Below, piece after piece: positions 17,623-53,197 of a DNA stretch of 64,000 nt. The stretch is from an uncultured Comamonadaceae bacterium (lineage in GTDB: Bacteria; Pseudomonadota; Gammaproteobacteria; Burkholderiales; Burkholderiaceae). The stretch spans positions 11,936 to 75,935 of the forward strand of contig CAMLSD010000007.1 in the NCBI GenBank assembly GCA_946482595.1, given 5' to 3'. Every line of letters begins with the position of its first letter. Position 1 is the first letter of the stretch. Made by a program: the position numbers and the translations under genes. The notes beneath the pieces are model-generated. The model worked only from the letters and a program-made list of their open reading frames with translations. It made no database searches and had not been told where the DNA came from.

Positions 17623-17629
17623 CGCAAGG

Positions 17630-17648: not shown

Positions 17649-17705
17649 CATGATGACATGAAAGTCGTTTGGCGCGGCCTGGGCCCGAGCATGACACTTG
17701 CCGCC

Positions 17706-18347: not shown

Positions 18348-18426
18348 GACGCCCTCCGGCGCGTGCGCGGCCTACCCGATGCCCGGTCAAGCTGGTAGAG
18401 TGGGCGCCTCACTTGGAGGGGTCGCG

Positions 18427-19164: not shown

Positions 19165-19192
19165 CGGGCGGCCGGGGCGCCAGAGCGCCCGC
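19164..19192. terminator. GC-rich hairpin between convergent genes
   Basis: GGGCGC-CAGA-GCGCCC (19175-19190), or alternatively GCGGGCG (19164-19170) with CGCCCGC (19186-19192), can form stable hairpins in the 43-bp gap between convergent stops. There is no T-run, so it is at best a weak bidirectional terminator. Confidence 0.3.
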
Positions 19193-19207
19193 CGCTGCGG
19201 CGCGCGC

Positions 19208-37160: not shown

Positions 37161-38189
37161 TTACTTGCGGTACTTCACCAGCAACTCACGGGCATCCTGC
37201 AGCAGCTGCTTGCCGTTGGCGCCGCGCTTGTCCATGTCGGCCACCCATTCGTCGTAGAGCGACGCCGAGGCCTGGATCCAGTTGTCGAGTTCGCTGGCGG
37301 GGATGCGGTAGAAGGTGTTGCCGCGGTCGGTGGCGAGCTTGCGGCCCAGCGCCTGGCTGTCGTCCCAGGTCTTGCCGATCTGGCGCGACAGCGTGGCGCC
37401 ACTGTTGGCGTCGATCACGGCCTTGAGGTCGGCCGGCAGGGCGTCATAGCGCGCCTGGTTCATGCCGAAGATGAACACGGCCGAATACAGCGCCGGCTTG
37501 GACGGGTCGGTTTCGGCGTGGAACTTCACCATCTCCTCGAGCTTCAGCGAAGGCATCACCTCCCAGGGCAGCAGGAAGCCGTCGACCACCCCCTTGTTCA
37601 CCGCCTCGACCACGGCGGGCAGCGGCATGGCCACCGGCGTGGCGCCCAGCTTGGCCAGCAGCTTGTTGGTCTGGCGGGTGGGGGCACGCATCTTCAGGCC
37701 CTTGAAGTCGGCCAGGGTCTTGACCTGCTTGTCGCGGGTGTGCACATAGCCTTCGTCATGCACCCACACCGCCAGGATCTTCGTGCCCGGGAACTCCTTC
37801 ATCGCATGCTTGTTGAGGTAGTCCCAGGCGGCCTGCGCACCGGCTTCGGCCGAGTTGGTCATGAAGGGCAGCTCGAACACTTCCATCATCGGGAACCGTC
37901 CCGCGGTGTAGCCGGGCAGCGTGATGGTGAGGTCGGTCACGCCGTCGCGCACCTGGTCGACCAGCTGGGGCGGCGTGCCGCCCATGGACATGGCCGGGAA
38001 GACCTGGCACTTGATGCGGTTCTTCGACTCGGTGGCAACCTTGTCGCACCACGGCCCGATGACCTTCTGCGAGGCCATGGCCTGGTTGTTCCAGATGTGA
38101 TGGAACTTGAGCGTGAGGTCCTGGGCCGAGGCGCCGAACGACAGCGTGGCGGCCAGTGCGGCCAGGGCATGGCGAAGGGGGTGGGTCAT
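37161..38189 (-). CDS. TRAP-transporter DctP-type substrate-binding protein (orphan)
   Basis: A 342-residue periplasmic binding protein with a signal peptide ([19 protein letters not shown]). The family core shows [80 protein letters not shown] (Arg of RAPTRQ clamps a carboxylate) and a C-terminal helical part. No DctQ or DctM membrane gene is near, so it is an orphan, using a remote permease. It lies 132 bp after the lyase gene at the end of the large catabolic group; the ligand may be the same acid as that pathway's product or substrate. Confidence 0.9.
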
Positions 38190-38321
38190 GTGGGTCTCCA
38201 GCAGAAGCACGGGGTGTGGGGCGACGTTGGCGTCAACCGTCAGATCAGGATCGTACGCAGCGGCCCTGCGCGCGCACAGTGGGGCAAGTCTGGAGGGCAG
38301 TGCGCACAGCGCGCAGCGCGC

Positions 38322-39182
38322 TCATTCATAACGTCTGCCCCGCGCCAGCAGCTCAGGGGTGCCGATGGCGGCATTCAGGCCGTCGAAGTCCAGCATGCGA
38401 TCGCGCCAGGGTGTGGTGGTGCCATGTGCCTGCAGGCTGCTGTAGTAGTGCTGCAGCGTGTGGGCCACCGCACGCGCCGTGCCGCCGGGGAAGATCGCGA
38501 TGCGAAAGCCGCGCCGTGCGAGCTCGGCCGTGTCCTGCACCGGTGTCTTGCCGCCCTCGACCATGTTGGCCAGCAGCGGCACGCGCTGCGCGAAACGCTG
38601 GCAGGCGGCATCCATCTGCTGCGGCGTGCGCAGGGCCTCGATGAACAACGCATCCACGCCGCAGGCGAGGTAACGTTCGGCCCGCTCCAGCGCCGCGTCC
38701 AGGCCTTCGATCGCCAGCGCGTCGGTGCGCGCGAGGATCAGCGTGTCGGGCTGGCGCCGGGCATCGAGCGCGGCGCGCAGCTTGCCGCACATCTCTTCGA
38801 CCGGGATCACCCCCTTGCCGTCGAGGTGGCCGCAGCGCTTGGGAAAGGTCTGGTCCTCGAGCTGGATCATCGCGGCGCCGCAGCGCTCCAGGTCGCGCAC
38901 CGCACGTTGTGCATTCAGCGCATTGCCGAAGCCGGTGTCGGCGTCGACGATCACCGGCACCTGTACCCGGTCGGTGATGCGCGCCAGCGTGTCGGTGACT
39001 TCGCTCAAGGTGGTCAGGCCGATGTCGGAGCGGCCCAGCCGGGTGTAGGCGATCGACGCGCCGGACAGGTACAGCGCCTCGAAGCCGGCCTGCTCGGCCA
39101 GCAGCGCCGAGAGCGCGTCATACACCCCTGGCGCCAGCACGATGCGCCCGCTGGCCAGGTGGTCACGCAAGGGGGAGCTCAT
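38322..39182 (-). CDS. Isocitrate lyase/PEP mutase-family lyase
   Basis: A 286-residue TIM-barrel enzyme. Substrate and metal-site motifs are YLSGASIAYTRLG, VDADTGFGN (Asp80, Asp82) and QLED (Glu109, Asp110); the gating loop KRCGHLDGK carries the catalytic Cys117 that defines lyases of the family (methylisocitrate, 2,3-dimethylmalate), as opposed to phosphonate mutases. It would cleave a 2-hydroxy-dicarboxylate to pyruvate (or a 2-oxo acid) plus a second acid. Its ATG overlaps the flavoprotein stop by four bases. In context it would follow the LeuCD-like hydratase in the pathway. Confidence 0.88.
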   Translation of the reverse strand: MSSPLRDHLASGRIVLAPGVYDALSALLAEQAGFEALYLSGASIAYTRLGRSDIGLTTLSEVTDTLARITDRVQVPVIVDADTGFGNALNAQRAVRDLERCGAAMIQLEDQTFPKRCGHLDGKGVIPVEEMCGKLRAALDARRQPDTLILARTDALAIEGLDAALERAERYLACGVDALFIEALRTPQQMDAACQRFAQRVPLLANMVEGGKTPVQDTAELARRGFRIAIFPGGTARAVAHTLQHYYSSLQAHGTTTPWRDRMLDFDGLNAAIGTPELLARGRRYE

Positions 39183-40603
39183 GACGGGGTCTCCTGAGTC
39201 GAAGTCAGCCGATCGGGGGGTGCCAGACGCCGGGCGGTGCGCGCGGCGATCGCGCCGCCGGCCACCGCGCTGAGCAGGCCGTTGCCGGACAGATAGCCCC
39301 AGACCGCATCGCCCGAGACGCCCCGTGCGGCGCCGCCGGCGGCCAGCAGATTGGGCAGCGGTGAGCCGTCTTCGCGCAGCACGCGGCAGTCGCCATCGAC
39401 GTTCAGTCCGCCCTGGGTGTGGAACAGCGCGCCGGTGACCTTGACCGCGTGCAGCGGTGTGCCCAGCGCGCGGCGGAAGCTGCGGCCGAACGGGCAGGTG
39501 ACGCCGGGCGCCACCGCCTGCAGCGTGGCCTGCAGTGCGTCCGCCGGTACCCCGATGAGGCGGGCGAGTGCAGCCGCAGCGTCGGCGCTGCGCACTGCAC
39601 CGGCCGCTTCGGCCGCGCGGAAGTCCGGGAAGCCGCGCGCCAGCGCGAGCACCGGCTCGTCGAACACCATCCAGGCGATCGAGCCGGGCTGTGCCAGCAC
39701 CTGCACCGCGGCTTCGGAGTACCCGGCGCTTTCGTCGTGGAAGCGGCGGCCTTCGCGGTTGACCTGCACACCGCCTTCCATCATCAGGGCCCAGGAGATC
39801 AGCGTGCCCTGGGGCACGGCCCAGCCGCCGTGACCCTGGTAGCCGCCCAGGTCGGCCAGGCCCGCCCCGAGCGACCGGCCCCAGGCCAGGGCACTGCCGT
39901 CATTGCCGACATGGCCGGCAAACGGCGCGTGGTGCATCTCGGGCAGCAGTTCGTGCACCAGCGCGGGGTTGCCGCCGAAACCGTTGCACGCCAGCACGAG
40001 CACGTCGCAGGCGATGTGCTCGTGCTGGCCGTCGGGGCGCTGCAGCCCCACCCCCAGGACGCGGTCATGCCCGTTGCACCACAGCTCGGTCACGAGCGAT
40101 CGGGTGAGCAGGTCGGCACCCGCCTGCACGGCGGCTCGCTCCAGGGCGGCCACCAGGGCTGCGCCGGTGCGTTCGGGCAGGGTGTGCATGCGGCGCACAC
40201 TGTGGCCCGGGTACAGAAACCCGTCGAGCAGCTCGAACTGCAGGCCGTGGTGTGCGCCCAGGTGGTCCAGCGTGGGTCCGATGGCCTGGGTGTAGGCGGC
40301 CACCAGCCGAGCGTCGGCACGGCCCCGGGCCTTGACCTGGATGTCGCGGGCGAAGCCCTCGGCGCTGTCGCCCACACCGGCCTCGCGCTGCACCTGGGTG
40401 CCGCCTGCCGGGATGAAGCCCGAGGAGAGTGCCGTCGAGCCCTGCGGCACCGCGTCGCGTTCGATCACCAGGCAGGCCACGCCGGCATCGCGCAGCATGA
40501 TCGCGGTGGTCAGGCCGCAGGCGCCGGCACCGACCACGACGGTGTCCACATGGGGTGTGTCGTCCGGCATGCGTTCGGCCCGCACGATCCGGGCCTGGGT
40601 CAT
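39179..40603 (-). CDS. FAD-dependent oxidoreductase, fumarate-reductase/KstD-like
   Basis: A 474-residue flavoprotein. The FAD-binding Rossmann start is VVVGAGACGLTTAIMLRDAG with an ERD acidic end; the family active-site region includes GLNVDGDCRVLREDGSPLPNLLAAGGAARG and the final GYLSGNGLLSAVAGG dinucleotide-binding segment. Such enzymes oxidise or reduce C-C double bonds next to carbonyls. Its ATG and stop overlap both neighbours (ATGA each side). In this pathway it may introduce or remove a ring or acid double bond. The large frame to 41482 on this strand is not one gene. Confidence 0.85.
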   Translation of the reverse strand: MTQARIVRAERMPDDTPHVDTVVVGAGACGLTTAIMLRDAGVACLVIERDAVPQGSTALSSGFIPAGGTQVQREAGVGDSAEGFARDIQVKARGRADARLVAAYTQAIGPTLDHLGAHHGLQFELLDGFLYPGHSVRRMHTLPERTGAALVAALERAAVQAGADLLTRSLVTELWCNGHDRVLGVGLQRPDGQHEHIACDVLVLACNGFGGNPALVHELLPEMHHAPFAGHVGNDGSALAWGRSLGAGLADLGGYQGHGGWAVPQGTLISWALMMEGGVQVNREGRRFHDESAGYSEAAVQVLAQPGSIAWMVFDEPVLALARGFPDFRAAEAAGAVRSADAAAALARLIGVPADALQATLQAVAPGVTCPFGRSFRRALGTPLHAVKVTGALFHTQGGLNVDGDCRVLREDGSPLPNLLAAGGAARGVSGDAVWGYLSGNGLLSAVAGGAIAARTARRLAPPDRLTSTQETPS

Positions 40604-41232
40604 GGTGCCGCTCCGGTGAGGTGGGCATGGAACCCGGCGCAGTCGATCACCCGGGCCACGGTGGCCAGGTCGGCCAGGCTGGCGCGGTGCGCCGCGTCGC
40701 TGAAGGCCGCGCAGCCGTCGGACAGCACCCAGGTGTCGTAGTCGCGCATGTGGGCATCGCGCACGGTGCTGGCCACCCCGCCGTTGGTGACGATGCCGCA
40801 GACCACCACGGTGCGGATGCCCGCGCGGCGCAGCACCCAGTCGAGTTGCGTGTTGAAGAAGGCGGAGTAGGCGACCTTGTTCACGCTCACGTCCACGCTC
40901 GGGGCCAGCAGGTCGTCGGTGGCGTGCCCGGGCTGGCCGGACTGGAAGTCGCCGCGGCGCAGGAAGGGCCGCAGCCTGTGCAGGTGCGGCGAGATCATCG
41001 GCTCGCCCCGGGCGTCCGGCCACAGGGTGAACTGGCTGGCCGCCACCAGGCCGCCCGCGAGCTTCAGGGCCTGCGCCAGCGGTGCAATGCGCCGTGGCAG
41101 CGCACGTGCGGCCTCGCTGACGGCGCCGCCGCGGGCGTAGGCACCATCGGGGGCAAGGAAGTCGTTCTGCAGGTCCACGATGACCAGGGCCGTGTGCGCT
41201 GCATCGATGATGTCGGGGGCGGGCATGTTCAT
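40600..41232 (-). CDS. Isochorismatase-fold hydrolase lacking the usual catalytic Cys
   Basis: A 210-residue Rossmann-like hydrolase. The family Asp20 (VIVDLQNDF) and Lys119 (VNKVAYSAF) are in place, but the third site, where cysteine hydrolases have Cys (TxxCVxST), reads VTNGGVASTVRDA, with Gly152. True isochorismatases also have Gly there, yet no isochorismate pathway is near. Cys145 is on the preceding strand and cannot be assumed to substitute. It lies between HyuA and the flavoprotein, overlapping both, so an amide- or ester-hydrolysing role is expected by context but not assured by residues. Confidence 0.85.
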   Translation of the reverse strand: MNMPAPDIIDAAHTALVIVDLQNDFLAPDGAYARGGAVSEAARALPRRIAPLAQALKLAGGLVAASQFTLWPDARGEPMISPHLHRLRPFLRRGDFQSGQPGHATDDLLAPSVDVSVNKVAYSAFFNTQLDWVLRRAGIRTVVVCGIVTNGGVASTVRDAHMRDYDTWVLSDGCAAFSDAAHRASLADLATVARVIDCAGFHAHLTGAAP

Positions 41233-43301
41233 GGGGTGAGGTCGGACTCGCGCCGGATGACCAGATTGCCCAGCGGGTCGACGGTGGCGGCAAAGCCCGG
41301 CTCCAGCCAGACGGTGGTGTCGGCCTGCTCCAGGATGGCCGGGCCGGGGACGGTGCAACCCACCGGCAGCGCCAGGCGGTCGTGGCGTGTCGCGGGCCAC
41401 CAGCGGCCGTCGTGGTGCACCTCCTGCACGCCCAGGCTGGCGGGCATGTCGGCATGTTGCGGGGCCAGCACGGCCAGGTCAAAGCCGGGTCGCACGCCGA
41501 TGCGGGTGTAGCGCAGGTTCATCACCCGCACCGCGATGCCGTCCAGCGTGCGGCCGAAGGCGGCCTGGTAGGTGGCGGCAAAGGCCTGTGCCAGCGCGGC
41601 GTGGGTCAGGCCCTCGCGCTCGACGCGCACGCGCAGCGTGTGGGTCTGGCCGGCGTAGAGCATGTCGAACTCGATCAGTTCGTCGATGCGCACGAACCGC
41701 ACGCCGGCCGAGTCCAGCCGGGCCTGGCAGGCCGCGGCCTGGGTCTCGATGCGCTCGCGCACCAGGGTGAGGTCCAGGTCGGCGAGGGCGCAGTTCAGCG
41801 TCTGCACCGTGTCGTGCCGCATGTCGGCCATCACGCAGCCCAGCGCCGACGTCACGCCCGGGTAGCGGGGCACCAGGCCCACGCTGACACCCACCTCGCG
41901 CATCATCGCGCACACATGCAGCGCCCCGCCGCCGCCAAAGGGCATGTAGGCAAAGCGGCGCGGGTCATGGCCGCGTTCGATCGACACCACCCGCACCGCA
42001 CCGGCCATGCGGGCATTGGCCACCGTGAGGATGGCTTCGGCCGCGGCCAGCACGTCCAGGCCCAGCGCGCGAGCCACGTGTTCCTCGATGGCGCAGCGGG
42101 CCAGCGACACGTCAAGTGCGGCCAGCAGGCCGCCGCCCAGCGGACGGCTGGCGGCGATGCGCCCGAGCAGCACGTTGGCGTCGGTGACGGTGGGGCGGGT
42201 GTTGCCCCGCCCGTAGCAGGCCGGGCCGGGCCGGCTGCCGGCCGATTCGGGGCCGACCTGCAGCAGCCCGCTGGCATCGACCGAAGCGATCGAGCCGCCC
42301 CCGGCGCCGATGGTCTCGATCTGGATCATCGGCGAGCGCACCACCAGGCCGAACTCGATCGCGGTCTGCGCGGCCAGCGCGGGCTCACCGCCGGCCACCA
42401 GCGACACGTCGAAGGACGTTCCGCCCATGTCGCCGGTGATGACGTCCGGATAGCCCGCACTGCGGGCGATGGCGGCGCAGGCGATCACGCCGGCGGCCGG
42501 GCCGGACAGTGCGGTGCGCACCGGCAGCTCGCAGGCGGTCTCGCGCGACATCACGCCGCCATTGCTCTGCACCACCAGCAGTTCGCCGCCAAACCCCTGC
42601 TCGCGCAGCTCGGCGTCGAGCCGCCCCAGGTAGCTGCCGACCACCGGCTGCAGCGCGGCGTTGATGCTGGCGGTGGAGGCCCGCTCGAACTCGCGGATCT
42701 CGGGCAGCACCTCGCTGGCGGCCGTGACGTGCGGGTTGGGCCACAGGCTGCGCACCACCTCGGCCGCCTGCTGCTCGTTGGCCGGGTTGGCATAGGCATT
42801 GATGAAAAAGACACACACCGCCTCGCAGCCGGCGGCCAGCAGGGCCAGTGCGGCCTCACGCACCTGGGCCGGGTCGACGGCCTGCAGCACCGTGCCGTCG
42901 GCCAGCACGCGTTCGTCGACCTCCAGGCGCAGGTCGCGCGGCACGAGCGGCGTGAAGCTGCCGCGCAGGCCCCAGGTCTGCGGGCGGTCGCGCCGGCGCA
43001 TCTCGAGCACGTCGCGAAAGCCGCGGGTGGTGATCAACCCGGTGCGGGCCACCTTGCGCTCCAGCAGCGCATTGGTGCCCACGGTGGTGCCGTGCACGAT
43101 GGTGGCCAGGTGCCGCGCGGGCTGCGGGTCGTCCGGGTCGACCCGGGCGATGCCGTTCATGAAACCCACGGACTCCTCACCGCGGGTGGAGGGCACCTTG
43201 ACGATGTGGGCGCGGCCTGCGGCCTCGTCGAGGATGAACAGGTCGGTGAAGGTGCCGCCGACGTCGACGCCGACCACCTGGCGACGGGAAGATGGGTTCA
43301 T
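41229..43301 (-). CDS. hyuA: Hydantoinase/oxoprolinase subunit A (HyuA)
   Basis: A 690-residue ATP-dependent subunit. The N-terminal ASKHA-type nucleotide fold shows VGVDVGGTFTDLFI and IVHGTTVGTNALLERK; central features are SGPAAGVIACAAIA and DMGGTSFDVSLV. HyuA works with HyuB to open a lactam or imide ring such as N-methylhydantoin or 5-oxoproline at the cost of ATP, or in acetone/acetophenone carboxylase relatives to activate a ketone. It overlaps the hyuB stop and the isochorismatase-fold start. Adjacent genes argue for a cyclic amide. Confidence 0.92.
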   Translation of the reverse strand: MNPSSRRQVVGVDVGGTFTDLFILDEAAGRAHIVKVPSTRGEESVGFMNGIARVDPDDPQPARHLATIVHGTTVGTNALLERKVARTGLITTRGFRDVLEMRRRDRPQTWGLRGSFTPLVPRDLRLEVDERVLADGTVLQAVDPAQVREAALALLAAGCEAVCVFFINAYANPANEQQAAEVVRSLWPNPHVTAASEVLPEIREFERASTASINAALQPVVGSYLGRLDAELREQGFGGELLVVQSNGGVMSRETACELPVRTALSGPAAGVIACAAIARSAGYPDVITGDMGGTSFDVSLVAGGEPALAAQTAIEFGLVVRSPMIQIETIGAGGGSIASVDASGLLQVGPESAGSRPGPACYGRGNTRPTVTDANVLLGRIAASRPLGGGLLAALDVSLARCAIEEHVARALGLDVLAAAEAILTVANARMAGAVRVVSIERGHDPRRFAYMPFGGGGALHVCAMMREVGVSVGLVPRYPGVTSALGCVMADMRHDTVQTLNCALADLDLTLVRERIETQAAACQARLDSAGVRFVRIDELIEFDMLYAGQTHTLRVRVEREGLTHAALAQAFAATYQAAFGRTLDGIAVRVMNLRYTRIGVRPGFDLAVLAPQHADMPASLGVQEVHHDGRWWPATRHDRLALPVGCTVPGPAILEQADTTVWLEPGFAATVDPLGNLVIRRESDLTP

Positions 43302-44977
43302 GCTGATGCCGATGCAGTGGTGTAGCCCAGGGCCAGATCGCGCGCGAGGGCTTCGGGGTTGCGTTCGCCGGCCGGGCCGCAGCCGCCGCCGCCGGGGGTT
43401 TCCAGGCGCACGCGGTCGCCGCGCACCAGGCGGATGCCGACCATCTTCGAGCCCAGCGCCGGCTGCTGCCACTGGCCGGCATGCCCGTAGCTGAAGCGGT
43501 TGGGTGCGCCGTCGCCGCCGCCGTCCACGCCCTTGGGGGCCGAGCGCGAGCGCTCACCGAAGATGAAGGCCTCGGCCTGCTCCTCGAGCAGCTCGATCTC
43601 GTAGACCGCGCCCAGGCCGCCGCGGTGCCGCCCGGCACCCCCTGAGTCGGCACGCAAGGCCCATTGCGTGAAGCGCACCGGGTAGGCCGCCTCCAGGATC
43701 TCCAGCGGCGGGATGGTCGCCATCGAGATCGGTGCATTGCCGTGGTTGAGCCCGTCGCCCTGCGCATGGGCACCGTGCCCGCCGCCGAAAAAGCTGAACA
43801 TCACCCAGCGCTGGCCGGCACGTGCGGGATCGCTGCGGTGGCCGGCGATCGACAAGGCGTTGATCGTGCCGTAGGCCTGGCCCATCGCATCGTGGGGCGC
43901 GGCCTGGGCGGCGGCGCTGAAGATCACGTCGATCATGCGCAGGATGGTTTCGGTGTAGCCACCCACCGGTCGCGGTCGTGCCGCCGAGATGACCCGCCCG
44001 TCGGGAATGATGAAGTCCACCGCGTCGAGCACGCCGGCGTTGGCCGGCACGTCGGGGAACAGGTGCTTGAGCGCCACGTAGCAGGCGGCCACCGCGGTGG
44101 CTCGCGAGATGTTCACCGGGCCGGCGCACGCAGGTGAGGAGCGCGAGAAGTCCAGTGTCAGGCGGTCGCCCTGCACCCGCATGTCGAGCGCGATCGCCAG
44201 CGGCGTGTCGGTGACACCGTCGTTGTCGAGGCAGTCGTCGAAGCGATAGTGGCCGTCGGGCAGGGCGGCGATGTGGTCGCGCATCAGGCGCACCGCGCGC
44301 GCACGCAGCAGGCCCAGGGCCTGGCGGACCGTGTCGTCGCCGTACTCGTCGAGCAGGGCATGCAGGCGGCGCTCGCCCAGCTCCAGGGCGGCAAGCTGGC
44401 CGTTCAGGTCGCCCCACAGGCTGTCGGGCAGCCGGGTGTTGGCACGCAGGATGGCCAGGACGTCGTCGTCCATCGTGCCGCCGCGCAGGATGCGCACCGG
44501 CGGGATCTGCACCGCCTCCTGCCAGCATTCGGTGGCCGCCGGGTTGTAATTGCCCGGCACCGCACCGCCCACGTCATGCCAGTGCGCGGCCGAGGCCAGG
44601 AAACACCACAGCCGGCCACCGCGAAACACCGGGCGCACGAGCTTGAAGTCGTTGGCGTGCGTGCCGCCTTCATACGGGTCGTTGAACAGCCACACATCAC
44701 CTGGCGCCAGGCCACGGTGCGGATCGTCCGGTGCACGTTGTGCCGCGGTGCGCATGGCCGCGCGCACGGCAAAGGCCATCGCCCCGACGAACACCGGCAG
44801 CCCGGACTTGCCCTGCACGAGGGTGTCGCCGGTGTCCGGGTCGTACAGGCCATGGCAGGCGTCATGGGCCTCGGCGATGATGGGATTGAAGGCGCTGCGG
44901 TACAGCGTGGCGTCCATCTCGTCGGCGATCTGTTCCAGCCGGCCCTTGAGCACGGCCAGGGTGACGGGGTCCATCAT
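43298..44977 (-). CDS. hyuB: Hydantoinase/oxoprolinase subunit B (HyuB)
   Basis: A 559-residue subunit. Family blocks are MDATLYRSAFNPIIAEAHDACHGLYD at the N-terminus, [88 protein letters not shown] in parts (GGGHGAH, EILEAAYPVR) and the Gly-rich GGLGAVYEIELL. With HyuA it forms an ATP-dependent ring-opening enzyme. The start is ATG 44977, which overlaps the leuD stop (ATGA); a Met directly after it is an equal alternative. Glu, His and Asp-rich motifs may bind metal. Confidence 0.92.
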   Translation of the reverse strand: MMDPVTLAVLKGRLEQIADEMDATLYRSAFNPIIAEAHDACHGLYDPDTGDTLVQGKSGLPVFVGAMAFAVRAAMRTAAQRAPDDPHRGLAPGDVWLFNDPYEGGTHANDFKLVRPVFRGGRLWCFLASAAHWHDVGGAVPGNYNPAATECWQEAVQIPPVRILRGGTMDDDVLAILRANTRLPDSLWGDLNGQLAALELGERRLHALLDEYGDDTVRQALGLLRARAVRLMRDHIAALPDGHYRFDDCLDNDGVTDTPLAIALDMRVQGDRLTLDFSRSSPACAGPVNISRATAVAACYVALKHLFPDVPANAGVLDAVDFIIPDGRVISAARPRPVGGYTETILRMIDVIFSAAAQAAPHDAMGQAYGTINALSIAGHRSDPARAGQRWVMFSFFGGGHGAHAQGDGLNHGNAPISMATIPPLEILEAAYPVRFTQWALRADSGGAGRHRGGLGAVYEIELLEEQAEAFIFGERSRSAPKGVDGGGDGAPNRFSYGHAGQWQQPALGSKMVGIRLVRGDRVRLETPGGGGCGPAGERNPEALARDLALGYTTASASA

Positions 44978-45504
44978 GGGCGGGCCTCCTTCAGGCGTTG
45001 CCGCAACTGCGGCAGCAGGCCACCGGCGTCGACCATGTCGAGCAGGAAGCCGGGAATGGGCTGGCACGCCAGCCGGCGGGGCGGGCCGGGCGGCTCACCG
45101 GGGCGCGCGGGGTCATGCAGCAACCAGCCGGCACGGGCGTCGAAGCCCAGGCGGTCGCCGTCGGCGATGGTCTCGGCCTCGGTGCAGGTCAGCAGCAGCA
45201 GGCCGACGTTGAAGGCATTGCGGAAGAACAAGCCGCTGAACGAGGGCGCCACCACCGCGGCCACCCCGAGGTGGACGAGGGCCTGGGCCGCCTGCTCGCG
45301 CGACGAGCCGATGCCGAAGTTCGCGCCGGCCACGATCACGTCGCCGCGCTGCACCTGCCGGGCGAACTCGGGGCGCACCGCCTCCAGGCAATGGCGGGCC
45401 ACCACGTCGATGCCGAACTTCATCGTGGCACCAGGCGCGAGCTGGTCGGTGTCGATGTCGGCGCCCAGCCGCCAGACGCGGTGGGGGGTCGTGCCGGCGC
45501 TCAT
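44974..45504 (-). CDS. Aconitase-family hydratase small subunit (LeuD-like)
   Basis: A 176-residue swivelling domain. VWRLGADIDTDQLAPGATMKF and the substrate-binding loop AGANFGIGSSREQAAQAL, with the G-SSR motif, are the LeuD signature. It pairs with the large subunit encoded just upstream, whose stop overlaps its ATG. The C-terminal portion (PIPGFLLDMVDAGGLLPQLRQRL) is typical. Real leucine synthesis is unlikely: leuA and leuB are absent and catabolic genes flank it, so it probably hydrates or dehydrates another 2-hydroxy acid, as in dimethylmaleate hydratase. Confidence 0.9.
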   Translation of the reverse strand: MSAGTTPHRVWRLGADIDTDQLAPGATMKFGIDVVARHCLEAVRPEFARQVQRGDVIVAGANFGIGSSREQAAQALVHLGVAAVVAPSFSGLFFRNAFNVGLLLLTCTEAETIADGDRLGFDARAGWLLHDPARPGEPPGPPRRLACQPIPGFLLDMVDAGGLLPQLRQRLKEARP

Positions 45505-46763: not shown

Positions 46764-46768
46764 GGTGG

Positions 46769-47731
46769 TCAGTCCGGCCTGGCGCCCGAGTACTTCACGA
46801 GCTGGGCCCAGCGCGGCACGTCGGCCTTCACGAAGGCGGCGAACTCCTCGGGCGCATTGCCCACGGGCTCGGCACCGTCCATCTCCAGGCGCTTGCGGAA
46901 GGCATCGGTGCGCACGGCGGCGCGGGCCGCGTCGCTGGTGCGGCGCAGCACCTCGTCGCTCATGCGTGCCGGGCCGAACAGGCCGAACCAGGCCGAGGAC
47001 TCATAGCCGGGCAGCACCTCGGCGATGGCCGGCACATCGGGCAGGGCGCTCAGCCGGCGCGGGCTGGTCACCCCCAGTGCCTTGAGCTTGCCCGACTGCA
47101 CCAGGCTGCGCACATTGCCCACCGCGGCAAACATCAGCGGCACGTTGCCGGCCACCACGTCGGACACCGCCGGCGCGGTGCCGCGGTAGGGGATGTTCAC
47201 GATGAACACACCGGCCTGGATCTTGAAGGCCTCGCCCGCCAGGTGCAGCGAGGAGCCGATGCCGCCGATGGCGAAGTTGAGCTGCCCGGGGCGGGCCTTG
47301 GCATAGGCGATCAGCTCGCGCAGGTTGGCCACCGGCAGGCTGGGGTGGGCCACCAGCACCGACGGTGAGGTGGCCACCATGGTCAGCGGCGTGAAGTCGG
47401 CCACCGGGTCGAACGGCAGCTTGGGGTAAAGCGTGGCGTTGATCGTGTGGCTGGTGAAGCTCAGCAGCAGCGTGTTGCCGTCGGGGGCGGCCTTGGCCAC
47501 GGTGTCGGCGGCGAGGTTGCCGCCCGCGCCGGACTTGTTCTCGATGATCACGTTGCGCCCGAGCTGGCGCCCCATCTCGGGGGCGATCTCGCGGGCCAGC
47601 GTGTCGGTGGTGCCGCCGGGGGGCGCGCCGACGAAGATGCGCACCGGCGGGCCGCCGATCTGGGCCAGTGCCGGCAGGCTGCCGGCCAGGGTCAGGCCAC
47701 CAAGGGCCTGGACGAGGGTACGTCGTTGCAT
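46769..47731 (-). CDS. Bug-family substrate-binding protein
   Basis: A 320-residue periplasmic protein with a signal peptide (RRTLVQALGGLTLAGSLPALA) and Bug motifs VRIFVGAPPGGTTDTLAREI, VIIENKSGAGGNLAADTVAKA and LNFAIGGIGSSLHLAGE. These bind a carboxylate or amide ligand through two beta-alpha loops. A GGAG site precedes ATG 47731. It sits between the LivF gene (24 bp) and LeuC gene (5 bp) in the large operon, so a second, independent binding protein serves the same pathway, either for uptake or for sensing. Confidence 0.92.
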   Translation of the reverse strand: MQRRTLVQALGGLTLAGSLPALAQIGGPPVRIFVGAPPGGTTDTLAREIAPEMGRQLGRNVIIENKSGAGGNLAADTVAKAAPDGNTLLLSFTSHTINATLYPKLPFDPVADFTPLTMVATSPSVLVAHPSLPVANLRELIAYAKARPGQLNFAIGGIGSSLHLAGEAFKIQAGVFIVNIPYRGTAPAVSDVVAGNVPLMFAAVGNVRSLVQSGKLKALGVTSPRRLSALPDVPAIAEVLPGYESSAWFGLFGPARMSDEVLRRTSDAARAAVRTDAFRKRLEMDGAEPVGNAPEEFAAFVKADVPRWAQLVKYSGARPD

Positions 47732-47755
47732 GAGGTCGTCTCCGCGGATGAGGGG

Positions 47756-48466
47756 TCACACGCCCAGGTAGGCGCGTCGCAGGTCGTCGCTGGCCAGCAG
47801 CTCGTCGGGTTGTCCGCTGAAGCGGATCGCGCCGTTTTCCAGCACATAGGCGCGGTCAGCGATCTCCAGCGACTGGCCCACGTTCTGTTCGACCAGCAGG
47901 ATGGCCAGGCCCTGGGCATGCAGCTGGCCGATGAGGGTGAACATCTCTTCCACCAACAGGGGCGACAGGCCCAGCGAGGGTTCGTCGAGGATCAGCAGGC
48001 GCGGTTCGGCCATCAGGCCGCGGCCGATGGCCAGCATCTGCTGCTCGCCCCCGCTCATGGTGCCGGCGAGCTGGTCGGTGCGTTCCTTGAGCCGCGGGAA
48101 GATCGTGAACACGCGCTCGAGGTTGGTGGCGCGGCGCTCGCGGGCTCGGGTGAACGACCCCAGCTCCAGGTTCTCGAGCACGCTCAGGTTGGGGAAGATC
48201 TTGCGTCCCTCGGGCACCTGGATCAGCCCGGCACGCACGATGGCGCGGTAGTGCGCATGGGTGAGGTCCTGCCCGTCGAACATCACCTGGCCCGACCAGG
48301 TCGGCACCAGTCCGCACAAGGTGTGGTTCAAGGTCGACTTGCCGGCGCCGTTGCTGCCCAGCAGCGCAACGGTCTCGCCGGCATGCACCTGCAGGCTCAC
48401 GCCGCGCAGCACTTCGACACGGCCGTAACCGCCGCGCAACTGCCGGATGTCGAGCAAGGCGGTCAT
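47756..48466 (-). CDS. livF: Branched-chain-type ABC transporter ATP-binding protein (LivF)
   Basis: A 236-residue ABC ATPase. Walker A is GSNGAGKST, the ABC signature is MSGGEQQML, and Walker B is LLILDEPSLGLSP; IQVPEGRKIFPNLSVLENL is the LivF-specific region. It provides energy, with LivG, for uptake through LivHM. Its ATG (48466) overlaps the livG stop. The upstream frame to 48622 is rejected. Family: hydrophobic amino acid and related carboxylate/amide uptake. Confidence 0.93.
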   Translation of the reverse strand: MTALLDIRQLRGGYGRVEVLRGVSLQVHAGETVALLGSNGAGKSTLNHTLCGLVPTWSGQVMFDGQDLTHAHYRAIVRAGLIQVPEGRKIFPNLSVLENLELGSFTRARERRATNLERVFTIFPRLKERTDQLAGTMSGGEQQMLAIGRGLMAEPRLLILDEPSLGLSPLLVEEMFTLIGQLHAQGLAILLVEQNVGQSLEIADRAYVLENGAIRFSGQPDELLASDDLRRAYLGV

Positions 48467-49260
48467 GACGATGCTCCGAGCGGCTCGCCGGCCCGGCGGC
48501 CTTGGGCGGCCTGCAGCCGCCGTGCGGCACCGTGCCCCAGGTAGGCCTCGACCACGGCCGGGTTTGAGGTGACCTCGGCCGGGCTGCCCGAGGCGATCAG
48601 CTGGCCCTGGGCCAGCACCCACACGCGCGAAGCCAGGTTCATCACCGCCTGCATCACATGTTCGATCATCAGCACGGTCACGCCGCTGGCGGCGATGCCA
48701 CGCACCACCGGGATCATCTCGGCGATCTCATGCGGGTTCAGTCCGGCCAGCACCTCGTCGAGCAGCAGCAGGCGCGGGCGGGTGGCCAGGGCGCGGGCCA
48801 GTTCCAGGCGCTTGCGCCCGGCCACCGTCAGGTCGGCCGCCGGCTTGTCGAGCTGGCTGGCCAGGCCCACGCGCTCTGCCACGGCCGCGGCCTCGTCCAG
48901 GGCGCGACGTCGCTCGCGCAGATGCAGGTGAGCGCCCACGGCGATGTTCTCGCGCACGGTCTGGGCGGCAAAGGGCTGCACGATCTGGAAGGTGCGGGTC
49001 ATGCCGTCGCGGGCATTGAGCTGGGGTGGCCGGCCGGTGATGTCCACACCGTCGAAGCGCACCCGGCCCGCATCGGGCTTCAGGAAGCCCGACATCAGTG
49101 CGAACAGGGTGGTCTTGCCGGCGCCGTTGGGCCCGATCAGCGCGCACAGGCTGCCCTGCGGCACGGCCAGGCTCACGTCCTGCACCGCCTTGAGGCCACC
49201 GAAGGCGATGGACAGGCCCTGCAGCTCCAGCAGGGCGCGGGCGTGGGTCGTGTCAGTCAT
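48463..49260 (-). CDS. livG: Branched-chain-type ABC transporter ATP-binding protein (LivG)
   Basis: A 265-residue ABC ATPase with Walker A GPNGAGKTT, Q-loop region in RTFQIVQPF, Walker B LLLLDEVLAGLNPHE and the LivG hallmark GLNPHEIAEMIPVV. The signature segment LTVAGRKRLELARAL differs from the canonical LSGGQ but is the LivG-type variant. It partners with LivF; the two overlap by four bases, and its start overlaps the end of livM by eight. The C-terminal HGAARRLQAAQGRRAGEPLGASS extension is poorly conserved. Confidence 0.93.
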   Translation of the reverse strand: MTDTTHARALLELQGLSIAFGGLKAVQDVSLAVPQGSLCALIGPNGAGKTTLFALMSGFLKPDAGRVRFDGVDITGRPPQLNARDGMTRTFQIVQPFAAQTVRENIAVGAHLHLRERRRALDEAAAVAERVGLASQLDKPAADLTVAGRKRLELARALATRPRLLLLDEVLAGLNPHEIAEMIPVVRGIAASGVTVLMIEHVMQAVMNLASRVWVLAQGQLIASGSPAEVTSNPAVVEAYLGHGAARRLQAAQGRRAGEPLGASS

Positions 49261-50224
49261 CGTGGCGTCTCCGGGCCTGGGCCCACAGGGTGCGCACCGA
49301 CAGGCCGATGCCGGCGATGCCGCGGGGCACGAACATCACGATCACCACCAGCACGGCGCCGTAGATCACCATGTTCACGCCGGGCAACTGGCCGAACAGG
49401 TTGCGGGTCACCTCGGCCAGCAGGTGCAGCACCGCCGCGCCCAGCAGCGGCCCCCACAGCGTGCCCATGCCGCCGACGATGGCGGCCACCAGGGCCTCGA
49501 CCGATGCAGCCGGGCCGAAGGCGATGTTGGGGTCGATGTACTGGAAGACCTGCAGGTAGAAGGCCCCGGCAGCACCCATGAAGGCCGCCGACAGGCCGAT
49601 GCCGGCGAGCTTCACGCGATAGGGGTCGACGCCGATCGCGCGGGCCGCGTCCTCGTTGTCGCGCACCGCCTGCAGGTAGGCACCAAAGCGCGAGTGACGC
49701 AGCCAGGCCGTGACCAGCAGCGCCAGCACCAGCAGGCCGAGGATCACCGCGATGTAGCCCTTGCGGGTGGCGAACTGCAGCTTCAGCGCGGAAGGGTCCA
49801 GCGGCAGCATCAGGCCCACGCCGCCGCCGGTGAAGTCGACCGACACCGCCAGGATGCGGAACACCTCGGCAAACGCCAGCGTGACCAGCGCGAAGTACGA
49901 GCCCTTGAGTCCGTAGCGAAAGCTCAGCGCGCCCACGAACAGGCCCACCCCGGCGGCCCCGGCCACCGCCAGCGGCAGCGCCACCCAGGCATTGAGCCCG
50001 TGGGTCATCTGCGCGATGGCCTGGATGTAGGCGCCGGTGCCGAAGAACAGCGCATGGCCGAAGCTGAACTGGCCGCCAAAGCCACCCAGCAGGTTCCACG
50101 ACTGCGCCAGCAGTGCGGCATACAGCGTCATCATCAGGAAGTTCAACCAGACGCCGGAGTCCAGCCACCAGGTCACCAGGGCGGTGAGCAGCGTGAAGGC
50201 GAAGATGTGCAGCAGGTCGCGCAT
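49253..50224 (-). CDS. livM: Branched-chain-type ABC transporter permease (LivM)
   Basis: A 323-residue inner-membrane permease with eight to nine helices. Family motifs are QSWNLLGGFGGQFSFGHALFFGTGAY near the N-terminus, and the cytoplasmic ATPase-contact loop RFGAYLQAVRDNEDAARAIGVD. GGMGTLWGPLLGA lies near the C-terminus. It forms the channel together with LivH, 3 bp upstream. This segment also contains long antisense open frames that are not genes. Confidence 0.93.
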   Translation of the reverse strand: MRDLLHIFAFTLLTALVTWWLDSGVWLNFLMMTLYAALLAQSWNLLGGFGGQFSFGHALFFGTGAYIQAIAQMTHGLNAWVALPLAVAGAAGVGLFVGALSFRYGLKGSYFALVTLAFAEVFRILAVSVDFTGGGVGLMLPLDPSALKLQFATRKGYIAVILGLLVLALLVTAWLRHSRFGAYLQAVRDNEDAARAIGVDPYRVKLAGIGLSAAFMGAAGAFYLQVFQYIDPNIAFGPAASVEALVAAIVGGMGTLWGPLLGAAVLHLLAEVTRNLFGQLPGVNMVIYGAVLVVIVMFVPRGIAGIGLSVRTLWAQARRRHDD

Positions 50225-50227
50225 GGA

Positions 50228-51109
50228 TCAGGCCCGCGCACCGAACAGCCCCTGCGGACGCAGCAGCAGCACGGCGATGAAGATGAGGAAGATGCCGATC
50301 TGCCCGAGCGACTCGCCCAGGAACAGGCCGCCCAGCGACTCCACGACCCCGATCAGCAGCCCGCCCACCAGCGCGCCGGCAAAGCTGCCCATGCCGCCGA
50401 GCACGACGATCGTGAAGGCCACCAGCACAAAACCGCTGCCCACCTGCGGGTTCACGTAGTAGGCCGGCAGCAGGAAACACGCGGCGGCCCCCAGGCAGGC
50501 CAGGCCGATGCCGAAACACATGGCATAGACGTGGTCGACGTCGATGCCCATCAGGCGCGCGCCCTGCTTTTCGCGGGCCACCGCCCGGATCGCGCGGCCG
50601 AGATCGGTGCGGCGGATGATCCACAGCAGCACTGCCGAGGTGGCCAGCGCGCCGCCGAAGGCCACCAGCTTGGGCAGCGAGAGCATCGCCGGGCCGATGG
50701 GCACGGTGCTGAGCGTGTAGGCGGTGTCGATGGTGCGAGTGTCGGACTTGAACACCAGCAGCGCCAGGTTCTCCAGCACGATCGACAGCCCCAGCGTGAC
50801 GAGCAGGATGTTCTCGTCCTTGCCGTGGCTGGCGCGGTTGATGATCAGGCGCTGCAGCGCATAGCCCAGCGCGAACATGCCCGGCACCACCAGCGGCAGG
50901 GCCAGGTAGGGGTCGATGCCCAGGCGGTCCTTGAGCAGATAGACCGCGTACAGGGCCACCATCAGCGCCGCACCGTGGGCGAAGTTGATGATGTGCAACA
51001 CGCCGTAGATCAGCGTCAGCCCCAGCGCGATCAGCGCATAGACGGCGCCCGTCGTCAGCCCGTTGAGGACCGACGGGAACAGGATGCCGAACTCGAGCAT
51101 GGCGGTCAT
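50228..51109 (-). CDS. livH: Branched-chain-type ABC transporter permease (LivH)
   Basis: A 293-residue inner-membrane permease with about eight helices. NGLTTGAVYALIALGLTLIYGVLHIINFAHGAALMV is the family N-terminal pattern, here by its parts (GAVYALIALGLTLIYG, NFAHG). The contact loop reads LGRAIRAVAREKQGARLMGID, and VVLGGMGSFAGALVGG is near the end. It follows the binding-protein gene by 34 bp and precedes livM. Substrate specificity lies in the binding protein, not here. Confidence 0.93.
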   Translation of the reverse strand: MTAMLEFGILFPSVLNGLTTGAVYALIALGLTLIYGVLHIINFAHGAALMVALYAVYLLKDRLGIDPYLALPLVVPGMFALGYALQRLIINRASHGKDENILLVTLGLSIVLENLALLVFKSDTRTIDTAYTLSTVPIGPAMLSLPKLVAFGGALATSAVLLWIIRRTDLGRAIRAVAREKQGARLMGIDVDHVYAMCFGIGLACLGAAACFLLPAYYVNPQVGSGFVLVAFTIVVLGGMGSFAGALVGGLLIGVVESLGGLFLGESLGQIGIFLIFIAVLLLRPQGLFGARA

Positions 51110-51143
51110 GGCGTGTTGCGGTGGGTGAGTGCGGTCGCCGGGC

Positions 51144-52346
51144 TCAGGCCTTGAGCGGGAAGATCGGATCGGCCTCGCGGTACTCGCGCGGGATGATCAC
51201 GCGGATGTCCCCCTGGATGACCTGGGTCATCAGCGGCTGCGCGCCGGTGTTCTGGCCGTTGACGAACTTCGTCGGGCCATAGGGCATCAGGTGGTCGGAG
51301 AAGGTGCTCTTCTCGAGGGCGTCGATGATCGCAGCGCGGTCGGTCGAGCGGGCCCGCTCGATCGCGTCGGCCAGCAGGCGTGTCGCGGTATAGGTGCAGA
51401 ACACCTCGTAGCTGAAGAACAGGCCCTTGGCCTCGACGCGCCGGCGTAGGTCGGCCGAGCGCTTGTCCTTGGGGTTGAACCAGTGGTTGCAGTCGATGAT
51501 GCCGTTGGCGGCGTCCGGGAACTCCTTCAGGAACTTGTAGCTCGATGCGGCGCCCCCCAGCACCGAGTAGATCGCCTTGGGCGCCACGCGTTGTTGTGCC
51601 ATCGTGCGCACCAGCAGCGCGTACTCGTTGTAGTAGTTCGCGGGGATCACGATGTCGGGGTTGACCGACTTCATGCGCAGCACGATGTTGTTGAAGTCGC
51701 GGGTCGGGTTGGCGTGCTTGACGACTTCCTTGATCTCGTAGCCGTAGCCCGGCAGCTCGCGCGCCAGCAGGTTGGCCGTGCCGGTGCCGAACAGCGACTC
51801 CTCGTGGATGATCATCACCGAGCGGGCCGGCTTGCCGGCAGCGGTGTTCAGCACATGCAGGTTGGCCACCGCCGCCTGGGCGCAGGTGCGGTAGCCCGGG
51901 CCGAAGCGGAAGGTGTTCTTCAGCCCGCGCTCGACGATCTGGTCGGCCACGCCCACGTCCACCACGTGGGGCAGGTTGTACTTGGCGGCGGTCTGGGTGG
52001 TGGCCAGGCAGATGGCCGAGGCAAACGCCCCGACCACGGCCGAGACACCGGCCTCGTTCATCTTCTCGATCTCGGCCGAGCCGGCTTCGGGGCGCGACTG
52101 CGCGTCACCCAGCAGGGCCTCGATGCGTGCCCCGCCCAGCGACTTGATGCCACCGGCCTGGTTGATGTCCTCGATCGCCATCAGCGCCCCCTCGCGGCAC
52201 TGCTGGCCCGAGTAGGCCAGCGCGCCCGTCACGGGATGGAGCACACCGATCTTCACCGACCGGGCCTGGGCTCCGCCCACGAGGGGAAAGGCCAGGGCCG
52301 AGGCGGCGGCGGCCGACTGCTGGATGAAGGTGCGACGCGAGCTCAT
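51144..52346 (-). CDS. ABC transporter substrate-binding protein, Leu/Ile/Val- or amide-type
   Basis: A 400-residue periplasmic binding protein of the LivK/UrtA/AmiC group. MSSRRTFIQQSAAAASALAFPLVGGAQA is a Tat-like signal. The mature part has IGVLHPVTGALAYSGQQCREGALMAIEDINQAGGI and VSAVVGAFASAICLATTQTA, typical lobe-1 motifs. An AAAGGAG ribosome site precedes ATG 52346. It heads the transporter genes below the GntR regulator (59 bp), so it should bind the pathway substrate or an analogue; the ligand cannot be named from sequence. Confidence 0.92.
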   Translation of the reverse strand: MSSRRTFIQQSAAAASALAFPLVGGAQARSVKIGVLHPVTGALAYSGQQCREGALMAIEDINQAGGIKSLGGARIEALLGDAQSRPEAGSAEIEKMNEAGVSAVVGAFASAICLATTQTAAKYNLPHVVDVGVADQIVERGLKNTFRFGPGYRTCAQAAVANLHVLNTAAGKPARSVMIIHEESLFGTGTANLLARELPGYGYEIKEVVKHANPTRDFNNIVLRMKSVNPDIVIPANYYNEYALLVRTMAQQRVAPKAIYSVLGGAASSYKFLKEFPDAANGIIDCNHWFNPKDKRSADLRRRVEAKGLFFSYEVFCTYTATRLLADAIERARSTDRAAIIDALEKSTFSDHLMPYGPTKFVNGQNTGAQPLMTQVIQGDIRVIIPREYREADPIFPLKA

Positions 52347-52405
52347 GGGCGACTCCTTTGGGGGTGGGTTCAAGGCAAGGCGGTGAGGGGTCAGATCAGC
52401 GCGGT

Positions 52406-53197
52406 TCAGTGAAACTGGGCCGACAGCTCCTTGCTGACCCAGACCTTGGCATCGATGCTGCCGACACGCGACAGCTGCATCTCGTACTGGTAGCGATCGG
52501 GCCGGTACAGGCCGTTGAGCCATTGCACCGGGCGGTCCTGGTCGTCGAAGATCAGGCGGCTGACGGCCAGCAGGGCCGAGCCCACGGCCACGTCCAGATG
52601 ACGTGCCACGACCGCATCGGCCAGGCGCGCCGAGATCGTCTGCGTGGCCCGTCCGATCGCCACGCCCGACTCCTCGAGCAGCAGCAGGATGGGCTTGCGG
52701 GCCAGCTCGCGCCGGCCGAAGCCGCTGGCCAGCGACTGAGGCACATGGGTCGTGATGTAGGACAGCGGGCCTTCGCGTGTGCTGCGCACCCGCACTGCCT
52801 TCTGCACCGGCTCGCCGGCTGGAATCTGCAGCACCCGGGCCACCGCCTCGGGTGCCGGCATCACCTCGCACTCGATCACGCTCACAGAGGTGCGCAGGCC
52901 CATGCTCACGATGTTCTCGAGCAGGCCGTTGAGCTGCGCCCGCGAGCCCGAAGCCTGAGCGCTGGCGGGGCTGTCGGCCGGCTTGACCGGCGTCGTGCCA
53001 CGGCCCGGCGTGCGGGTGATCAGCCCTTCGTTGACCAGCCGCTCCAGCGCCTTGCGTACCGTCACGCGTGCCACGCCGAACTCCTTCATCAGCAGCAGTT
53101 CGCTGGGCAGGCCCTGCTCGAACCGACCCTCGTGCAGCTGCTCGCGCAGCACGAGGTAGATCTGGTGGTACTTGGGCAGCGGCAGGGGATGGGCCAT
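52406..53197 (-). CDS. GntR-family regulator, HutC subfamily
   Basis: A 263-residue regulator. Winged-helix motif: YLVLREQLHEGRFEQGLPSELLLMKEFGVARVTVRKALERLVNEGLI in parts (GLPSELLLMKEFGVARVTVRKAL); the C-terminal UTRA effector domain begins about residue 90 (LENIVSMGLRTSVSVIECEV) and ends YRPDRYQYEM. It is the first gene of the large minus-strand group and most probably its repressor, acting through the overlapping inverted repeats just upstream (53218-53240). HutC-type effectors are often pathway intermediates. Confidence 0.9.
   Translation of the reverse strand: MAHPLPLPKYHQIYLVLREQLHEGRFEQGLPSELLLMKEFGVARVTVRKALERLVNEGLITRTPGRGTTPVKPADSPASAQASGSRAQLNGLLENIVSMGLRTSVSVIECEVMPAPEAVARVLQIPAGEPVQKAVRVRSTREGPLSYITTHVPQSLASGFGRRELARKPILLLLEESGVAIGRATQTISARLADAVVARHLDVAVGSALLAVSRLIFDDQDRPVQWLNGLYRPDRYQYEMQLSRVGSIDAKVWVSKELSAQFH

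Follow-up and report, generated by a model that had tools for sequence, protein, structure and literature searches.

What could a bacterium degrade with a gene set that joins a HyuA/HyuB-type ring-opening pair to a LeuCD-like hydratase and a carbon-carbon lyase? The question was raised by a 64,000-nucleotide stretch of DNA from an uncultured Comamonadaceae bacterium (assembly GCA_946482595.1, contig CAMLSD010000007.1, positions 11,936 to 75,935 of the forward strand), referred to here as the window. Fifteen of its minus-strand genes (37161-53197) had been predicted to form an operon for the degradation of cyclic amides or imides. Our analysis points, tentatively and with slightly less than even confidence, to 14 of these genes (38322-53197) being an inducible operon for the catabolism of a cyclic imide, most likely of the five-membered, substituted maleimide or succinimide type. 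No account of this gene set was found among the matches listed in the open-access literature.

Conservation and boundaries of the gene cluster

Family assignments were made with Pfam for all fifteen proteins and with NCBIfam for ten, and Pfam agreed with the predicted families in every case. The conservation of the cluster was evaluated by scanning one genome per species with the isochorismatase-fold hydrolase; the best 80 of 210 confirmed stretches were kept, and 58 of these loci extended at least 9 kb upstream and at least 2.8 kb downstream of the hydrolase gene. Genes were tallied by tblastn, counting same-strand matches of at least 50% identity. The gene caller missed the hydrolase in 11 loci, and the divergent lyases of loci L005, L010 and L015 were scored as missing in the tblastn tally. 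HyuA, HyuB, LeuC, LeuD and the lyase were all found on the same strand in 53 of the 58 loci, and the flavoprotein was present in 51. The synteny comparison called for by the original prediction lent it support, as all seven catabolic genes followed the order of the window (LeuC-LeuD-HyuB-HyuA-hydrolase-flavoprotein-lyase) in 51/58 loci. The five loci without the full set belonged to Halomonadaceae, and three of them had a lyase (61-62% identical) on the opposite strand. The arrangement is not due to chance; the loci are not independent, since many come from a single genus, Limnohabitans.

The hydrolase was detected at E ≤ 1e-30 in 8 of 398 genomes drawn from the phylum and at E ≤ 1e-60 in 7 of 250 genomes from the family of Acidovorax sp. 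NB1 (the anchor genome being included in both counts). The unit is therefore patchy but widespread, occurring in Burkholderiales, Halomonadaceae and several Alphaproteobacteria. The hydrolase also matched 30 plasmid records, from Azospirillum, Sulfitobacter, Paraburkholderia, Variovorax, Roseomonas, Tistrella, Neorhizobium and Allorhizobium. Eleven of these 30 plasmid loci were examined, and HyuB and HyuA lay beside the hydrolase in all 11, accompanied by the lyase in 10, LeuC in 10 and the flavoprotein in 8.

With the chosen starts, each of the fifteen open reading frames began with ATG, was in frame and had one terminal stop. Nine overlapping gene pairs had been claimed; overlaps were counted at 8 of the 14 junctions, seven of 4 bp and one of 8 bp. 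The last gene, encoding a DctP-type binding protein (37161..38189, minus strand, PF03480), was separated from the lyase gene by a 132-bp gap, and no homolog of it was found at E ≤ 1e-10 across the 80 related loci. Contrary to the original prediction, this gene is probably not part of the unit, which is better taken as 14 genes because of the gap and the missing homologs. Other DctP-type proteins of tripartite ATP-independent periplasmic (TRAP) transporters do accompany the cluster in Sulfitobacter. The separate look of DctP is what would be expected if several unrelated transcription units simply lay side by side; for the rest of the cluster this is barely credible, given the overlapping genes, the same order in 51/58 loci and the linkage kept in Alphaproteobacteria.

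Enzyme families and active-site residues

The isochorismatase-fold hydrolase (40600..41232, minus strand, PF00857) had been proposed to act as a NicF-type enzyme. Its alignment with RutB and with the solved structure 3irv placed Gly152 at the position of the catalytic Cys. The same Gly was found in 121 of 121 aligned sequences (the window protein and the top 120 among 7,999 relatives scored) and, in a more diverse alignment, in 27/27, where Asp20 and Lys119 were invariant as well. A motif scan recovered the Gly form in 11/11 plasmid loci and in 77/80 genome loci, with no motif match in the other three. The protein is thus not a NicF-type cysteine amidohydrolase, and that mechanism was ruled out for the window protein and its aligned relatives. 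The cluster defines an isochorismatase-fold family without the catalytic cysteine, though public records name its members cysteine hydrolase or RutB. The AlphaFold2 model of the hydrolase was confident (predicted local distance difference test score 89.1), and the protein matched RutB at 6.5e-16 and PhzD at 2.8e-11. True isochorismatases (EntB/PhzD) carry Gly at the Cys position; no chorismate gene was present among the fifteen. Dialkylmaleamates hydrolyse readily via their neighbouring carboxylate, and therefore an enzyme acting on them could do without a nucleophile of its own. The Cys-less hydrolase perhaps carries out such a substrate-assisted amide hydrolysis.

HyuA (41229..43301, minus strand, PF05378+PF01968+PF19278) and HyuB (43298..44977, minus strand, PF02538) are proposed to be the ATP-site and metal-site subunits of an ATP-dependent ring-opening amidohydrolase, on the grounds that the residues needed in caprolactamase were kept. 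The best solved match of HyuA was the N-methylhydantoinase 7hk5 (E 2.6e-122). Its phosphate motifs, GVDVGGTFTD and TGDMGGTSFD, were kept in homologs, and the candidate metal ligands D39, H107, D110 and H132 of HyuB were conserved in the variants compared. In the sections of the caprolactamase paper cited here, the phosphate motifs are DxGGTxTD and DxGGT (CapA D11 and D295), and the CapB metal site comprises D41, H99, D101/D102 and H124 (PMC8453981). The HyuB ligands were mapped onto those of CapB from motif spacing rather than by direct alignment, the spacing of D39 being off by ten residues. Against the caprolactamase equivalogs the pair scored 499 and 276 bits, the cut-offs being 1000 (beta subunit NF050157). 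Ketone carboxylases of the acetone or acetophenone type belong to the same superfamily as HyuAB, and the cluster might then handle a carboxylated ketone. We consider this very improbable: HyuA scored 499 bits against CapA but 283 and 174 bits against the acetophenone carboxylase subunits, no extra carboxylase subunit was found among the 15 genes, and in Halomonadaceae hydrolases apparently stand in for HyuAB. A carboxylase function, which the original prediction had named as one that would speak against it, was rejected on the family scores favouring CapA.

Leucine synthesis by the LeuCD-like proteins had been named in the same way. The large subunit (LeuC/HacA/DmdA-like, a predicted Fe-S hydratase; 45501..46763, minus strand, PF00330) scored above the NF001614 and TIGR01343 (HacA-family) cut-offs and far under that of the leuC equivalog TIGR00170 (234 versus 560 bits). 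The small subunit (LeuD/DmdB-like; 44974..45504, minus strand, PF00694) exceeded the TIGR02087 LeuD/DmdB cut-off (146 versus 109 bits). By these scores, LeuCD is on the HacA/LeuD-DmdB side of the family. The Fe-S cysteine motifs GACTG and CGxC of LeuC were conserved in the variants compared, and all but one of 11 related genomes, a fragmentary metagenome-assembled genome (MAG), had a leuC above the cut-off elsewhere. Leucine biosynthesis was thus rejected for the proteins of the window, the case of the Halomonadaceae cluster LeuC being less clear. The idea that a Lys of the LeuD specificity loop marks a third substrate carboxylate was also dropped, as this Lys is Gln in L034 and His in L097 and L098, and a literature search for the loop rule turned up nothing.

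The last enzyme of the unit, a lyase of the isocitrate lyase (ICL)/phosphoenolpyruvate (PEP) mutase family (38322..39182, minus strand, PF13714), is proposed to be a 2,3-disubstituted malate lyase. Its best solved match was methylisocitrate lyase 1mum, and its KRCGH motif aligned with that of PrpB; K115, C117, G118, H119 and the NMVEGG motif were invariant in 15/15 sequences. The protein scored 293 bits against the PrpB equivalog (cut-off 354) and matched 3fa3 at 3e-43, a match that does not decide the substrate, 2,3-dimethylmalate included.

The flavoprotein (39179..40603, minus strand, FAD_binding_2, PF00890), an optional member and proposed ring dehydrogenase or reductase, had been described as fumarate-reductase-like. 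It did resemble flavocytochrome c in sequence, scoring 200 bits (cut-off 285). In fumarate reductase, arginines serve catalysis and substrate binding. The Arg of flavocytochrome c fumarate reductase (ITTRDKAS) aligned with a Tyr (SAGYSEAA) that was conserved in the variants compared, and the region of the second substrate Arg differed too. The likeness of sequence stands, but a fumarate reductase function was rejected, as the catalytic Arg position holds a conserved Tyr.

Lineage variants and genes around the cluster

Two loci of Halomonadaceae, L103 and L104, combine a HutC-type regulator, the lyase (53% identical) and the flavoprotein (51-53%) with two PuuE-like proteins and another isochorismatase-family hydrolase; LeuCD was called in L104, and LeuC was located in L103. 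The hydrolase of L104 retains its Cys. Its best solved matches were 4l07/4l08, the N-carbamoylsarcosine amidohydrolases 26st and 1nba, and 3ot4/3uao; we take 4l07 to be a maleamate amidase and 3uao to be NicF, names that the search output does not give. The PuuE-like proteins scored 116 and 126 bits against allantoinase PuuE (cut-off 425). Among 151 Halomonadaceae genomes searched, 14 matched the second of these PuuE-like proteins at E ≤ 1e-100, and all 14 kept the arrangement of hydrolase, two successive PuuE-like proteins and flavoprotein (50-54% identical). With PuuE-like proteins and another isochorismatase-family hydrolase beside the same tail, ring opening and amide hydrolysis seem to have been taken over in Halomonadaceae by unrelated or distantly related enzymes. 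No use of ATP is known for the PuuE family. Lactam hydrolysis can be uphill, that of caprolactam by +23 kJ/mol (PMC8453981). These two points make a plain lactam an unlikely substrate. In the parts of PMC9304392 cited here, the fungal cyclic imidase HxnM shares 64% identity with the cyclic imide hydrolase of Pseudomonas putida and is similar to HP0310, a protein to which PuuE is the nearest relative characterised.

The Cys-less hydrolase itself adjoins a Bug-type protein and TctB/TctA-like proteins (the latter recognised by eye) in six Halomonadaceae loci, one of them short. No HyuB-family protein was detected in 4 of the 5 Halomonadaceae genomes carrying the Cys-less hydrolase, while the same search matched other genomes. 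A second unit adjoins the L104 cluster (14680-19999) and comprises a TauD-type dioxygenase, a Cys-type isochorismatase-fold hydrolase, a transporter that looks TRAP-like by eye, and a further lyase of the ICL/PEP-mutase family.

The cluster was rearranged in other lineages. In Sulfitobacter, a TRAP transporter, LeuDC and the regulator share one strand and are followed by a tautomerase-SnoaL protein, HyuB, HyuA, the hydrolase, the lyase and the flavoprotein. The order in Azospirillum oryzae and A. brasilense was regulator, LivKHMGF, lyase, HyuBA, hydrolase, flavoprotein and LeuCD. Laboratory strains with the cluster include A. brasilense Sp7 (plasmid ABSP7_p1) and Sulfitobacter pontiacus DSM 110277. 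Tistrella combined HyuBA and the hydrolase with an acyl-CoA dehydrogenase, a CaiB-type CoA-transferase and LeuCD, and neither lyase nor flavoprotein was listed in the fetched stretch. This CoA-transferase was nearest to succinate-glutarate and mesaconate transferases, below cut-off, and its occurrence together with the acyl-CoA dehydrogenase, HyuBA and the hydrolase points to a nitrogen-free dicarboxylate. A tautomerase fused to a SnoaL-like domain was noted near the cluster in nine fetched loci: L123 (9669-10235), L102 (5833-6387), L067, L045, L103, L104, L125, L127 and L132. The match was only partial in L103 and L104, being to the SnoaL domain in L104. In L019 (12892-16233), an Amidohydro_2 protein with homologs in 6/80 loci overlaps the lyase by 4 bp. 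Limnohabitans-type loci such as L019 carry downstream a Bug protein, a flavin monooxygenase of the PRK07538 group (11/80 loci with ≥73% identity, and a weak antisense match in addition) and a GNAT-like protein (named by eye; 15/80 loci).

This monooxygenase, found downstream in 11 loci, would suit a pyridine-type pathway, in which a six-membered imide or lactam, formed by hydroxylation of an N-heteroaromatic acid of the nicotinate or citrazinate type, is opened. A set of genes directly after the operon on a plasmid of Sulfitobacter sp. S190 (L134, 16757-23826) would suit it too: it encodes a 6-hydroxynicotinate reductase, a molybdenum hydroxylase, a UPF0280 protein and two proteins of amino-acid-synthesis families; an AraC regulator adjoins the set, and photosynthesis genes lie further on. 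The window likewise contains, about 4 kb past the lyase and on the opposite strand (31473-34276, plus), a small 2Fe-2S-like subunit followed by a 763-amino-acid molybdenum-hydroxylase-like protein. This pair is a possible N-heterocycle hydroxylase, with 38% and 25% identity to the Sulfitobacter molybdenum oxidoreductase. The fungal nicotinate pathway also proceeds via a six-membered imide, as described in the cited parts of PMC9304392. We nevertheless rate a pyridine-type route as rather improbable. The cluster with the 6-hydroxynicotinate reductase is accompanied by an AraC regulator of its own and was unmatched at E ≤ 1e-10 in the other fetched records, and a fixed link with the operon was rejected, as it occurs in one strain only. 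Glutaconate-type products would also be ill-suited to a malate-type lyase unless a further carboxyl were present.

The upstream half of the operon encodes regulation and uptake, all on the minus strand. Its first gene specifies a GntR/HutC-type regulator with a UTRA domain (52406..53197, PF00392+PF07702). It is followed by a LivK-like periplasmic binding protein (51144..52346, PF13458), LivH-like (50228..51109) and LivM-like (49253..50224) permeases (both PF02653), LivG-like (48463..49260, PF00005+PF12399) and LivF-like (47756..48466, PF00005) ATPases, and a Bug/TctC binding protein (46769..47731, PF03401) that is optional, being present in 41/58 loci. The start of LivF was set at 48466, giving a 4-bp overlap with LivG. 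HutC homologs lead Liv-type clusters on plasmids of Azospirillum, Neorhizobium, Roseomonas, Paraburkholderia and Variovorax. A sigma-70-like site was located just upstream of HutC (53232-53205); it was the sole one in 17.7 kb, and it is weak evidence because 0.5 such sites are expected by chance. Terminator-like sites were at chance level (4 versus 4.2 expected), and Rfam gave no match within 30000-56000. Two further gene groups of the window were named from N-terminal sequences only: a PAS/chemotaxis-type receptor-like protein (34285-35895, minus) between the molybdenum hydroxylase and pyrF, and a short group of an amidase-like gene, a Bug-type binding protein and a TetR-type regulator (4870-8043, minus).

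The proposed imide pathway and known systems

We infer the reactions, their order and the substrate from the observed gene content, families, gene order, residue losses and Halomonadaceae replacement. HutC would repress the operon, and LivKHMGF, aided in some lineages by Bug, tripartite tricarboxylate transporter (TTT) or TRAP proteins, would import the ring compound. The optional flavin adenine dinucleotide (FAD) protein might oxidise or reduce the ring, from the succinimide to the maleimide type or the reverse, and HyuA/HyuB would then open it with ATP to a half-amide, a maleamate. The Cys-less isochorismatase-fold hydrolase would free ammonia; in place of the lost nucleophile, the substrate's own cis-carboxylate may attack the amide. 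LeuCD would hydrate the resulting disubstituted maleate to a 2,3-disubstituted malate, which the KRCGH lyase would cleave, giving a carboxylic acid together with a 2-oxo acid, the latter being pyruvate when one of the substituents is methyl. The predicted logic of uptake, ring opening, amide hydrolysis, hydration and C-C cleavage thus gained from the conserved synteny and the apparent Halomonadaceae replacement and lost its NicF-type and fumarate-reductase details.

Several observations weigh against a cyclic imide. Judged by its residues, the hydrolase is without the nucleophile needed for ordinary amide hydrolysis, and the hydrolysis of an imide does not obviously need ATP. Of 10 genomes searched for the flavoprotein, 6 gave no match at E ≤ 1e-40: three from Halomonadaceae, Paraburkholderia L020, Trinickia L006 and a fragmentary MAG of Pigmentiphaga. 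In five Halomonadaceae genomes, the LeuC of the cluster passed the leuC cut-off (565-663 bits), each of these genomes having a higher-scoring leuC elsewhere, and an MmgE/PrpD protein occupies the LeuCD position in some lineages, e.g., Roseomonas and Neorhizobium. HyuAB was not near the hydrolase in L034 or in the six Halomonadaceae loci mentioned above, and one of these genomes, G001, was also without the PuuE-like protein, so that no ring opener was seen there. Finally, HyuAB, the PuuE-like proteins, the RutB-like hydrolase and two Asp/Glu/hydantoin-racemase proteins found additionally in Neorhizobium all come from families in which hydantoin or ureide chemistry occurs.

All the nitrogen-handling families here also include members acting on hydantoins or ureides, which makes a hydantoin route the main rival. 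In it, ring opening of a hydantoin by HyuAB would be followed by removal of the carbamoyl group by the hydrolase, and the amino acid would be handled by the flavoprotein and the remaining enzymes. We regard it as unlikely, though to be taken seriously. The N-methylhydantoinase match of HyuA, the closeness of the hydrolase to RutB, the match of the PuuE-like proteins to allantoinase PuuE (below its cut-off), that of the Halomonas Cys-type hydrolase to N-carbamoylsarcosine amidohydrolases and the hydantoin/allantoin-racemase-like pair of Neorhizobium are all consistent with it. On Tistrella mobilis pTM2 (L126, 18210-23342), sarcosine oxidase subunit genes lie on the other strand about 1 kb beyond LeuD. 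Sarcosine is a product of N-methylhydantoin breakdown, and these genes would fit such a route, or their position may be chance. A hydantoin would, however, leave no obvious substrate for LeuCD and the lyase, its amino acid would require deamination, for which the sole candidate is the flavoprotein missing in several genomes, and the variant with a CoA-transferase in Tistrella speaks for a dicarboxylate.

If the substrate is a cyclic imide, tetrapyrrole-derived maleimides are an attractive guess; they fit the chemistry of the tail, and the sequence proves nothing about them. The cluster would then supply the route, missing so far in bacteria, for the monopyrroles in which chlorophyll and heme breakdown ends (maleimides such as hematinic acid and methyl-ethyl-maleimide), a proposal that we consider quite unlikely. 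HyuAB would open the dialkylmaleimide, the Cys-free hydrolase would use the cis-carboxylate of its substrate, and LeuCD and the lyase would yield pyruvate and glutarate or butyrate; the flavoprotein, with the tautomerase-SnoaL protein of some variants, would convert rings of the succinimide or alkylidene type to the level of a maleimide. The sections of PMC7318184 cited here report that hematinic acid, but no other maleimide, was detected in leaves, refer to earlier work that places both hematinic acid and maleimides in lake sediments and in senescent leaves, and put chlorophyll turnover at about 10^12 kg a year.

If the imide reading is true, a widespread imide catabolic route is added in Burkholderiales, Halomonadaceae and several Alphaproteobacteria, and a concrete gene set becomes available for asking who consumes tetrapyrrole-derived maleimides. 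Even with a hydantoin as the substrate, two facts stay useful and testable: the hydrolase family is misnamed, and PuuE-like proteins apparently replace HyuAB.

The proposed pathway resembles the known cyclic imide pathways (the P. putida imidase; Aspergillus HxnM/HxnN) in that the ring is opened to a half-amide before amide hydrolysis. It differs in the families of the ring-opening and amidase enzymes, and in its hydratase and lyase tail, which is not mentioned for them in the cited parts of PMC9304392. With CapAB and N-methylhydantoinase, the window pair shares the two-subunit HyuA/HyuB architecture, the ATP motifs and the candidate metal ligands. In contrast to them, it falls well below the caprolactamase cut-offs, is linked to a hydratase and a C-C lyase, and has its place taken by PuuE-like proteins in Halomonadaceae. 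The hydrolase belongs to the family of the RutB/NicF-type amidohydrolases and shares Asp20, Lys119 and the motif GIVTN..VAST (as aligned with RutB), but their catalytic Cys is Gly in the window protein and in all of its close relatives that were aligned. The tail of the methylcitrate cycle (PrpD/Acn/PrpB) likewise combines a hydratase with a methylisocitrate-lyase-like enzyme, and PrpD-like proteins occur in some variants of the cluster; the window lyase, however, is under the PrpB cut-off and has NMVEGG where PrpB has NITEFG. Nicotinate fermentation in Eubacterium barkeri includes DmdAB and 2,3-dimethylmalate lyase. This dimethylmaleate branch has in common with the window an aconitase-family, two-subunit hydratase and a KRCGH lyase of the ICL/PEP-mutase family, whereas the enamidase and B12-dependent mutase of the E. 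barkeri pathway are absent among the 15 genes of the window, where entry would instead be by ring hydrolysis.

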